Shown: positions 50,187 to 54,480 of the stretch, piece after piece
How positions within the stretch are numbered: position 1 is the stretch's first letter
Layout of the letters: each line of letters begins with the position of its first letter
NCBI RefSeq assembly: GCF_025398195.1
Contig: NZ_JAODNV010000001.1
Location: 1-64,000, forward strand
Origin: Chelativorans petroleitrophicus
GTDB taxonomy: Bacteria; Pseudomonadota; Alphaproteobacteria; Rhizobiales; Rhizobiaceae
Reading direction: 5' to 3'
Length of the DNA stretch: 64,000 nt
Made by a program: the position numbers and the translations under genes
The notes under the pieces: model-generated
Seen by the model: only the letters and a program-made list of their open reading frames with translations
Database searches by the model: none
What the model was told of the DNA's origin: nothing

Positions 50187-50594
50187 ATGAGCAAGTCCAC
50201 AGCCACCCAGGCGAGACCGCTCTCGCCGCATTTGCAGATTTACCGCGTGACGCCCACCATGGCGATGTCCATCGTCCATCGTATCACCGGCGGCGCGCTT
50301 TATTTCGGAACCGTGCTTTTCGCCCTATGGCTGCTTGCGGCCGCCACGTCGCAGGCATGGTTCGATTTCGTGAACATGCTGTTCGGCTCGATTCTCGGCC
50401 GGCTCGTGCTTTTCGGCTACACTTGGACCCTCATCCACCACATGCTGGGCGGCATCCGCCATCTCATCTGGGACACGGGCCACGGCATCGAGAAGGAAAC
50501 CTCCACCCGCATGGCCTGGGTTACGCTGATCGGCTCCGTCGCCCTCACTCTGGTGGTCTGGGTGGCGGGCTACGCGGTTAGGGGAGGGTTTTGA
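50187..50594 (+). CDS. sdhC: succinate dehydrogenase cytochrome b556 subunit
   Basis: Membrane anchor of complex II. The 135-residue protein has RPLSPHLQIYRV, SIVHRITGGALYFG (quinone-site Ser and Arg) and the haem histidine region IHHMLGGIRHLIWDTGHG; three helices. The ATG is preceded by GGGGAAGCC. First gene of the sdh operon; sdhD follows with a two-base gap. Confidence 0.94.
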   Translation: MSKSTATQARPLSPHLQIYRVTPTMAMSIVHRITGGALYFGTVLFALWLLAAATSQAWFDFVNMLFGSILGRLVLFGYTWTLIHHMLGGIRHLIWDTGHGIEKETSTRMAWVTLIGSVALTLVVWVAGYAVRGGF

Positions 50595-50596
50595 TC

Positions 50597-50980
50597 ATGG
50601 CAGACATGCGCACACCCCTGAGCCGCGTCCGCGGCCTCGGTGCGGCTCGCAGCGGCACGGAGCACTTCTGGCGCCAGCGGCTGACGGCGGTTTCAAATGT
50701 GCCGCTCACTCTCTTTCTCATCGGATTTGTGATCGCCTATAACGGCGCCTCCTATGAAGAGGTGCGCGGCGCCCTTTCCAGCCCGTTTGTCGCGCTTCCG
50801 ATCGCCTTCGCCTTCCTGTCGGTGCTTTATCACATGCGGCTCGGCATGCAGGTGATCATCGAGGACTACGTCCACGATGACGGCTGGAAGGTGGCGCTCA
50901 TCATCCTCAACACCTTCTTCCCAATTGTCGTCGGCGCGATCGCGCTCTTTTCTCTTCTAAAAATCATTTTCGGAGCCTGA
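50597..50980 (+). CDS. sdhD: succinate dehydrogenase hydrophobic anchor subunit
   Basis: Second membrane anchor of complex II. A 127-residue protein: [27 protein letters not shown] at the start, three helices, and the haem/quinone block [25 protein letters not shown]. The ATG at 50597 follows GGGGAGGG; a TTG two codons earlier overlaps the sdhC stop. Confidence 0.93.
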
Positions 50981-50987
50981 TTTCCGA

Positions 50988-52823
50988 ATGGCGAATGCAA
51001 GCGAAAGAAAGGCCGTCAGGGCCTATGAGTATGTGGACCACGCCTTCGACGTGGTGGTGGTGGGGGCCGGCGGCGCAGGCCTGCGGGCCACGCTCGGCAT
51101 GGCCGAGCAGGGGCTGAAGACGGCCTGCATCACCAAGGTGTTTCCGACGCGCTCGCACACGGTGGCCGCGCAGGGCGGCATTGCTGCCTCGCTCCAGAAC
51201 ATGGGGCCCGACCATTGGCAGTGGCACCTTTACGACACGGTGAAGGGCTCCGACTGGTTGGGCGACGTGGACGCGATGGAATATCTGGCGCGCGAGGCGC
51301 CGGCCGCCGTCTACGAGCTGGAGCACTACGGCGTGCCGTTCTCGCGCACCGAGGACGGCAAGATCTACCAGCGCCCCTTCGGCGGCCACATGCAGAATTT
51401 CGGCGAAGGCCCGCCCGTGCAGCGCACCTGTGCTGCCGCCGACCGTACGGGCCACGCCATCCTACACACGCTCTACGGCCAGTCGGTGAAGAACCACGCG
51501 CAGTTCTTCATCGAATATTTCGCGCTTGACCTCATCATGTCCGATGACGGCGTGTGCACGGGCGTCGTTGCCTGGAACTTGGAGGACGGCACCATCCACC
51601 GCTTCGCCGCCAAGATGGTGGTGCTGGCGACGGGCGGCTATGGACGCGCCTATTTCTCCTGCACGTCCGCACACACCTGCACGGGCGACGGCAACGGCAT
51701 GATCGCGCGCGCGGGCCTGCCGCTGCAGGACATGGAGTTCGTGCAGTTCCACCCGACCGGCATCTATGGCGCCGGCTGCCTGATCACCGAGGGTGTGCGC
51801 GGCGAGGGCGGCTATCTCGTCAACTCCGAGGGCGAGCGCTTCATGGAGCGCTACGCGCCGTCGGCCAAGGACCTCGCCTCGCGCGACGTGGTCTCCCGCT
51901 GCATGATGCTGGAGATCCGCGAGGGCCGCGGCGTGGGCAAGAACAAGGACCACATCTACCTGCATCTCGACCACCTCGACCCGGCCGTGATCCACGAGCG
52001 CCTGCCCGGCATCGCCGAATCGGCGCGCATCTTCGCCGGCGTCGACGTGACGCGCGAGCCGATCCCGGTGCTACCGACGGTGCACTACAACATGGGTGGC
52101 ATTCCTACAAACTATTGGGGCGAGGTGCTGAACCCGACGCCGGATGATCCGGACGCCGTGGCGCCGGGCCTGATGGCCGTGGGCGAGGCGGCCTGTGCCT
52201 CCGTGCACGGGGCGAACCGGCTCGGCTCTAACTCGCTGATCGATCTCGTGGTGTTCGGCCGCGCGGCCGCCATCCGTGCTGGCCAGGTGGTGGACCGTTC
52301 GTCCAAGGTTCCGCCGGTCAATCGTGCCGCCTGCGAGAAGATCATGGACCGCTTCGACCGCATCCGCCATGCCGATGGCGGCACGCCGACTGCGGTGCTG
52401 CGTGAGAAGATGCAGCGGGCGATGCAGGAGGATGCCGCCGTCTTCCGCACGCAGGAATCGCTTGAGCAGGGCTGCCGGCGTATTTCCGCGATCTGGCAGG
52501 AGCTTCCCGACATCAAGGTCCATGACCGGTCGATGATCTGGAACTCCGACCTCGTGGAGACGCTCGAACTCCATAACCTCATGGCGAACGCGATCACGAC
52601 CGTCTATTCGGCTGAGGCGCGCAAGGAAAGCCGAGGCGCGCACGCGCGTGAGGATTTCACCGAGCGCGACGACGTCAACTGGCGCAAGCACACGCTTTCC
52701 TGGGTGGACGAGGCGGGCAGTGTGCGCCTCAGCTATCGTCCGGTGCATACCGAACCGCTGCTGAAGCCCGAGGAAGGCGGCATCGATCCGGCAAAGATCG
52801 CGCCGAAGAAGCGGGTGTACTGA
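50988..52823 (+). CDS. sdhA: succinate dehydrogenase flavoprotein subunit
   Basis: Catalytic subunit oxidising succinate to fumarate with covalently bound FAD. The 611-residue protein has [20 protein letters not shown], the FAD-attachment block [15 protein letters not shown] with the His, [38 protein letters not shown] and [18 protein letters not shown]. The ATG lies seven bases after sdhD. An inserted glycosyltransferase gene follows three bases later instead of sdhB. Confidence 0.97.
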
Positions 52824-52826
52824 GCA

Positions 52827-53708
52827 ATGCTCCAGGGCTGTGAAGGAGCATTGGAGGCCCAGCGTGTCGCAGCACAACAATGCGCGATCCTGGTTATCAA
52901 TCTGGACCGCGCGCCCGAGCGATTGGCCTTTCAGCGCGCCCAGGCCAAACATCTCGGAATAGACTTCGAACGGATACCGGCGGTGGATGGGGCGAAGCTC
53001 TCCGCTGAAACCTATCACCGATATGCTCGCCGATGGCAGCGTGTCCTGACGCGAAATGAAGTGGCCTGCCTTCTCAGCCATGCGAGATGTTGGGAGCACG
53101 TCATCGAACTTGGCTGCAACGCTCTTGTGTTGGAAGATGATGCAGTTCTGGCCGAAGAGCTCCCCGCCTTTCTGAATGAGGCGGCGGCCCTTGAAGGGTG
53201 TGTGGTCGTCAATATCGAAACCCGGTGCAGGCGAGCGTTTCTGGCTCGGGAACGTTCGGCATACTCCAGCACGGGTCTTTACGCGCTATTGCGGGCTGTT
53301 TCTGGCTCTGCCGGTTATCTGGTCACGCCTGAGGCCGCGGCAATGCTCTTGAAGGGGCTACCCCACAAGGCAGGTTTGGTGGACAATTACATCTGGGGAA
53401 AGCGGGATGTTAGGCGTTTGCAGGCAGACCCTGCATTCTGCATGGGGCTGGACGTGATGCAGGCGCATTTCCAATTGGAGAAGACTGCGCTTGCACGTTC
53501 CAACATCGCGAATAATGGGCGTTCCCGAGCAGAGAAAATATTGTCCTATTGTCGGCATCCGCTGACGGCTTGGAGAAGAGTGAAGGCGCAGGTCTCTCTT
53601 GGGCTTACCAAGATAATATTGCCATGGGTTGTCGCGTGGCGTGTGGTCGCCCCTTACCCATCCATACTAGCCAACTATCAGGCATTAAAAGGCGTGTGCA
53701 ATGGTTGA
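52827..53708 (+). CDS. family 25 glycosyltransferase inserted in the sdh operon
   Basis: A 293-residue GT25 (LPS-biosynthesis type) transferase. Marks are [13 protein letters not shown] (residues 20-32), [13 protein letters not shown], the Arg/Asn block [12 protein letters not shown] (74-85) and the EDD motif VLEDDAVL at 103-105; later DNYIWGKRD. It would add galactose or glucose to lipopolysaccharide core or capsule. It starts three bases after sdhA and its stop overlaps sdhB's ATG by eight bases, so it is truly inside the operon. Base composition is visibly less GC-rich, especially in the last third. The ATG has GAGCA upstream, a poor site. Confidence 0.88.
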
Positions 53709-54480
53709 GATCACCCTCCCCAAAAACTCCAAGATCCGGCAAGGCAAGGTGTGGCCGAAGCCCGAGGGCGCGACGAATCTGCGTGAATACCGCGTGTACC
53801 GCTGGTCGCCGGATGACGGCGAAAATCCGCGCGTCGACACCTACTATGTCGATATGGACGATTGCGGGCCGATGGTTCTCGACGGTCTCATCTGGATCAA
53901 GAACAAGATCGACCCGACACTCACCTTCCGCCGCTCCTGCCGCGAAGGCATCTGCGGTTCCTGCGCCATGAACATCGACGGCGCCAATACGCTCGCCTGT
54001 ACCAAGGGCATGGACGATATTGACGGCGCCGTGAGGATCTACCCGCTCCCGCATATGCCGGTGGTGAAGGACCTGGTGCCGGACCTTTCAATTCCCTACG
54101 CGCAGCTTTCCTCCATCGAGCCCTGGCTGCAGACGGTCACGCCCGAGCCCGCCACGGAATGGAAGCAGAGCCGCGAGGACCGGGCCAAGCTTGACGGCCT
54201 TTATGAGTGCATTCTCTGCTTTTGCTGCCAGACCTCCTGCCCCAGCTACTGGTGGAACGGGGAGCGGTATCTGGGGCCGGCGGTGCTGCTTCAGGCCTAC
54301 CGCTGGCTGATCGACAGCAGAGACGAGGCGACGGGCGAGCGCCTGGACAAGCTGGAGGACCCGTTCCGGCTCTACCGCTGCCACACCATCATGAACTGTA
54401 CGCAGACCTGCCCGAAGGGGCTGAACCCTGCCAAGGCGATCGCTGAGATCAAGAAGATGATGGTGGAGCGGCGGGTCTGA
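53701..54480 (+). CDS. sdhB: succinate dehydrogenase iron-sulfur subunit
   Basis: Passes electrons from FAD to quinone. The 259-residue protein binds [2Fe-2S] with Cys80, Cys85, Cys88 and Cys100, and [4Fe-4S]/[3Fe-4S] with Cys170, 173, 176, 180 ([12 protein letters not shown]) and [11 protein letters not shown]. Its ATG overlaps the end of the glycosyltransferase gene. Last gene of the sdh operon; no strong terminator is visible before the converging pseudogene. Confidence 0.97.

Follow-up and report, generated by a model that had tools for sequence, protein, structure and literature searches.

The question raised by this locus is why a glycosyltransferase gene lies inside the operon for respiratory complex II. 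In the window, that is, the whole stretch of 64,000 nucleotides that was analysed, the four sdh subunits are encoded on one strand in the order C-D-A-B (ORF calls and Pfam), and sdhA and sdhB are not contiguous because a gene of the GT25 family intervenes. We will argue, with a probability of about 0.7, that this gene was gained horizontally as a passenger of a slot that is filled time and again, that it is read from the sdh message, and that its link to respiration is incidental.

The features of the locus are collected in Table 1. An earlier note on this DNA had placed the GT25 gene between sdhA and sdhB, with the spacing given in the table on either side; the ORF calls and the sequence agree with both. 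Its assignment of the product to GT25, with an EDD motif, is likewise confirmed by the PF01755 match, the alignment and the fold.

Table 1. Features of the sdh locus and of the VapD-like genes found at the same boundary.
Feature	Position	Strand	Basis
sdhC, cytochrome b subunit of complex II	50187..50594	+	PF01127 E 2.6e-29
sdhD, membrane anchor	50591..50980	+	PF01127 E 7.1e-18
sdhA, flavoprotein	50988..52823	+	PF00890 E 5.4e-129, PF02910 E 2.4e-47
3-nt spacer opening the slot	52824..52826	+	sequence
GT25 glycosyltransferase, 293 aa, passenger (our reading) in the sdhA|sdhB slot	52827..53708	+	PF01755, model, Foldseek
EDD (DxD-type) motif, residues 103-105	53133..53141	+	alignment
AAAAGG, possible weak sdhB ribosome-binding sequence inside the GT frame	53687..53692	+	duplex -4.1 kcal/mol
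8-nt overlap of GT stop and sdhB start (ATGGTTGA)	53701..53708	+	sequence; translational-coupling type, coupling inferred
sdhB, iron-sulfur subunit	53701..54480	+	PF13085 E 1.2e-31
VapD-like slot genes	L042:2291-2653 (G010); L260-L268, L285		ten family genomes and one of another order

Against PF01755 the GT25 protein scores 85.3 bits (E 6.7e-24; cutoff 24), and a search of NCBIfam matched no family. An acidic EDD/DxD motif is typical of GT25 enzymes. Here the EDD shows no variation among the aligned sequences (29 of 29, one of them the window's), and it presumably takes part in metal and sugar-nucleotide binding, as in GT-A enzymes. The AlphaFold model (mean pLDDT 89.5, pTM 0.88), in which residues 234-287 form C-terminal helices, has the GT-A fold of the GT25 family as judged by its pTM and by Foldseek. 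The best Foldseek match is 8xgx (E 8.1e-11, TM 0.50 by query and 0.67 by target, rmsd 10.3 Å), and human COLGALT1 (9evj) is found with E 2.1e-10, a TM by query of 0.56 and an rmsd of 3.6 Å. The profile match, the fold and the EDD motif thus liken the protein both to the GT25 enzymes 8xgx, 8xlz and 8xc8 (bacterial beta-1,4-galactosyltransferase) and to COLGALT1. Identity to the solved bacterial enzymes is 23-24%, at about 10 Å over 212-230 columns of the 293-residue query, and to COLGALT1 it is 17%; unlike the closest known GT25 systems, the window gene sits inside sdhCDAB. A second GT25-like stretch with an in-frame TGA is present in the same genome (G000:C44:107395-107925).

The gene had also been described as less GC-rich than its neighbours, and comparison of codons and composition with window genes bears this out: it has a GC content of 0.568 and a GC3 of 0.599, compared to a GC3 of 0.744-0.869 in the 12 other window genes measured. 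We considered whether composition alone could prove a recent horizontal gain, and rejected this, since the orthologue of Nitratireductor aestuarii CGMCC 1.15320 (G014 = L073), which has the same GT25 insertion at 61% protein identity, is equally low in GC (0.567), while that of M. ephedrae is GC-rich (0.701). Between the window and N. aestuarii the GT25 proteins are about 60-61% identical and the SdhA proteins 91%. For the GT25 gene dN is 0.32 and dS 2.9, which is near saturation, and the resulting dN/dS of 0.11 is a rough value; for sdhA the corresponding figures are 0.058, 0.93 and 0.06. There are signs that the GT25 gene is kept under purifying selection, though it is changing faster than sdhA.

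In the genus, a GT25 gene at the sdhA|sdhB junction is found in 2 of 16 genomes, those of the window and of N. aestuarii. Twelve of the 16 have only 15-18 nt from the last sdhA codon to sdhB, a length that counts the stop codon, and most of these contain a GAGGA-type sequence; one junction measures 62 nt (G013), and one holds a VapD-like gene (G010). The sdhB genes of the other 15 genomes are 91-96% identical to the window's, the value for G014 being 92% over residues 90-259. The sole sdhB match in N. aestuarii (L002:2339-3071, L073:5839-6571) is broken, the reading frame changing between about residue 84 and about residue 90; this may be an assembly error.

In the family, GT25 genes of the window type occupy this position in at least 9 of 394 genomes, as counted from the loci of the best 30 of 44 matching genomes; the 7 found among 80 named loci all belong to these nine. 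A tree of 92 GT25 sequences divides the nine into two clades composed entirely of slot genes, one with the window, N. aestuarii and M. ephedrae (support 100/93) and the other with six sequences from Mesorhizobium and relatives (support 100/100). A single clade for all nine is not rejected (p-AU 0.34, in a test on 59 of 93 sequences, from which long-branch and near-duplicate rows, L205 among them, had been dropped), so that one origin for the slot GT25s is neither shown nor rejected. The GT25 of L205 lies far from the others on a long branch, and its placement is unsure. We also attempted to date the gain by a genus phylogeny from sdhA or sdhB, but these trees have too few supported branches, and one old gain followed by losses therefore looks the same in them as two gains. 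As for the earlier proposal of a horizontal gain that left the operon unbroken, the patchy occurrence in the genus and the low GC3 are in its favor, while the low GC content is no proof of recent arrival. The gene was probably gained horizontally.

The statement that sdhCDAB is normally contiguous turned out to be an unsafe rule in this family or order. Among the matches listed, sdhA and sdhB are linked in 139 family genomes, and the junction is shorter than 60 nt in 88 of these, 60-199 nt in 5 and at least 200 nt in 46. For this survey 161 family genomes were drawn and searched with the joined end of sdhA and start of sdhB. In 55 genomes both halves of the query matched in one frame over a short junction, a further 90 loci were fetched, of which 81 gaps were measured, and four genomes were added from earlier loci (G000, G198, G125, G169). 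The survey covers neither G017, G020, G021, G073, G081, G091, G104, G105, G127, G129 and G170, nor G121, which later proved to be occupied. G148 gave no match, the locus runs to a contig end in G128, G116 and G035, and two copies in G166 were counted once. No sdhA lies within about 16 kb upstream of sdhB in G076, G140, G175, G162 and G061, and in G066 it is more than 10 kb away on the other strand. We call a junction occupied when the gap is at least 200 nt; a few such gaps are without a convincing ORF (e.g. L173, L181, L190).

The neighbouring boundaries of the operon are closed. Within the 81 loci that had no in-frame A-B match, from which these controls were taken, sdhC|sdhD is shorter than 60 nt in 73 of 73 cases and never reaches 200 nt (0/73), and sdhD|sdhA is shorter than 60 nt in 74 of 75 and at least 200 nt in one. 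The glnK|amtB pair, also present in the window but unrelated to sdh, was linked in 36 of 56 genomes and has at least 200 nt of extra distance in 4 of the 36, one of them (G089) borderline. Insertions at operon junctions are therefore no rarity as such; sdhA|sdhB shows a marked excess over the other boundaries of the sdh operon and a moderate one over this ordinary junction. Fisher p-values for sdhA|sdhB are 2e-10 against sdhC|sdhD, 2e-9 against sdhD|sdhA and 0.012 against glnK|amtB, and are descriptive only, the genomes being related. In three genera (G080, G036, G061), glnK and amtB are separated by about 1.5-1.7 kb of extra sequence.

In other families of the order the approximate counts for sdhA|sdhB are 14 bare in-frame junctions, 7 shorter than 60 nt, 14 of 60-199 nt and 21 of 200-5000 nt; the two genes are far apart in G439, G055 and G465, and further genomes are split over contigs or gave one match only. 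Three loci, L255, L256 and L257 (G118, G197, G062), have an sdhA 72-74% identical to the window's and an sdhB 82-85% identical, and in these genomes the boundary may be a breakpoint between an sdhCDA and an sdhB of different history.

The cargo of the slot is diverse. Pfam scans of 35 ORFs selected from the gaps gave at least 13 families. The occupants include DUF3052, VapD-like proteins (Cas2 model), a FitA-type antitoxin with a PIN protein, Methyltransf_24, an FkbM methyltransferase, ManC, a sulfatase-family protein, an APP1 phosphatase, Inh-like lipoproteins, Sulfotransfer_2 and SUFU, and, besides the two GT25 clades, a distant third GT25 (L204, L205) and a GT1-type glycosyltransferase on the opposite strand (L176). 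Slot genes lie more often on the sense strand. Pairs of the FitA/PIN type occur in four genomes (L047, L177, L191, L234), with the PIN protein above its cutoff in all four and FitA only in L177; M. ephedrae (G198) carries both a GT25 gene and such a pair (L047:2497-3173). Of the 16 family genomes with a DUF3052 gene, 11 carry it in the slot.

Within the family sample, the VapD-like genes are more closely tied to this position. A search with the G010 protein (E up to 1e-8) detected VapD in nine of the 161 genomes, always between sdhA and sdhB, and G010 adds a tenth; in G062 the VapD gene lies about 40 nt behind sdhA, and sdhB is 2.9 kb from it. A class-wide draw gave a match in 13 of 367 genomes (E up to 1e-6), of which the best, in another order (G720), likewise lies in the slot. 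In the remaining 12, among them G735 and G745 with 55-63% identity, neither sdhA nor sdhB occurs within 1.5 kb; outside the family, VapD is thus also present away from the slot. The G010 protein matches NF041506 (E 6.7e-18) with 64.9 bits, where the cutoff is 100, and the Cas2 Pfam model with 27.7 (cutoff 23.8); the latter model is also matched by L168 and L198, and not by L185. These matches tentatively relate it to the VapD-like toxin-antitoxin systems of Gilep et al. 2025 (PMC11980593), from which, as far as the main text of that paper goes, it differs by its location between sdhA and sdhB; the terms 'sdh', 'succinate', 'Alphaproteobacteria' and 'Rhizob' have no hits in that main text. In the VapD tree, where resolution is poor, the sequences from the slot do not group as one clade. 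The similarities of VapD and of the sdhA end conflict: G121 and G024 are 76% identical in the former and 47% in the latter, and G121 and G062 are 49% and 73%. This suggests that VapD moved horizontally into the same place.

How, then, is the position of the GT25 gene to be explained? One could assume that an early ancestor already had a filled slot, which was later emptied repeatedly, with little recent transfer. A single clade for the nine slot GT25s is compatible with this, as are the long junctions in other families of the order. However, the number of Pfam families in the slot would require many gains, and the conflicting VapD and sdhA similarities also speak against it, so that we regard this as the leading alternative, though an unlikely one. 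The restriction of VapD to the slot within the family sample suggests more than passive permissiveness for VapD; of all the observations it is the hardest to explain by a merely permissive slot, and it is the most interesting lead. A tentative reading, which we consider unlikely at present, is that the sdhA|sdhB boundary is an alphaproteobacterial docking site, where VapD/Cas2-like genes and FitA/PIN-type pairs would settle repeatedly and horizontally and surface-modifying genes such as GT25 would be collected too, VapD serving either as a functional partner in the expression of complex II or as the agent of the slot's mobility. Selected functional coupling, in which the GT25 gene is in the operon because synthesis of surface glycans should track the expression of complex II, comes closest to the earlier idea that the gene ties cell-surface modification to respiration. 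The two all-slot clades and the distant GT25 do share the slot, and the FkbM, ManC, sulfotransferase and GT1 occupants may act on the envelope or on polysaccharide. Yet DUF3052, VapD, FitA/PIN and SUFU have no known surface role, 14 of the 16 genus members have a slot without GT25, and surface genes are often moved horizontally in any case, which makes such coupling quite improbable. Beyond the position itself nothing supports the earlier idea, and with VapD, antitoxin/PIN pairs, DUF3052 and Inh-like lipoproteins in the slots of relatives, the position says little about the function of the GT25 gene.

Two further explanations can be dealt with together. A neutral passenger in decay would agree with the low GC3 and the fast divergence of the protein, but the open frame, the invariant EDD, the confident model and the rough dN/dS of 0.11 make this very improbable. 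That the arrangement is an assembly artefact is hardly conceivable, as nothing was found in its favor: it recurs in the separately assembled genomes of N. aestuarii and M. ephedrae, and the window junction, at about 52.8 kb, is well within a contig of 169,968 bases. We return to the passenger of a recurrently filled slot, which is the simplest reading. According to this mechanism, sdhC-sdhD-sdhA would be a tight, closed block in Rhizobiaceae, and the sdhA|sdhB boundary would be open to whole genes. The slot GT25 would have arrived by horizontal transfer and, in a few lineages of Nitratireductor and Mesorhizobium, been retained by purifying selection, and would be read off the sdh message. Judging by its family, the enzyme would work on surface glycans, and we infer a GT-A glycosyltransferase whose donor would provide a hexose, by fold possibly galactose, and whose acceptor would be a surface glycan such as lipopolysaccharide. 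The slot would offer expression at low cost, and the respiratory link would be incidental.

The insertion of unrelated genes into conserved operons is a known general idea, and the present case resembles it in that an unrelated gene has joined a conserved operon that stays unbroken. It differs in that one boundary is refilled by many families while its two neighbours are closed, and in that VapD is found only there in the family sample. Literature searches, mostly at the level of listings, returned no paper describing genes between bacterial sdhA and sdhB, and listings on GT25, LPS and Rhizobiaceae returned none on the window gene. A core respiratory operon with one boundary filled in roughly one in three of the relatives sampled provides a natural test of why genes enter operons, of whether operon position is chosen or merely tolerated, and of the role of VapD beside complex II. 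It also warns against inferring function from operon position for genes like GT25.

Finally, the signals for expression were considered. Judging from the spacing only, the GT25 gene would be co-transcribed with sdh, and it is probably translated from the sdh message; the 3-nt and -8-nt junctions suggest translational coupling. Between 52600 and 54100 neither a sigma-70-type promoter nor an intrinsic terminator was found, a result of little weight since shuffled sequences are expected to give only 0.5 and 1.3. Upstream of the GT25 start, the duplex with the anti-SD sequence amounts to -6.6 kcal/mol, which points to a possible ribosome-binding sequence inside the end of sdhA. The SD-like sequence before sdhB has a mean of -4.8 kcal/mol at occupied junctions (42 loci) and -6.4 kcal/mol at bare ones (34), compared to -2.9 kcal/mol in random sdhA windows, and -5 kcal/mol or better is reached in 48%, 88% and 23%, respectively. 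An insertion into the slot may thus come at a cost.
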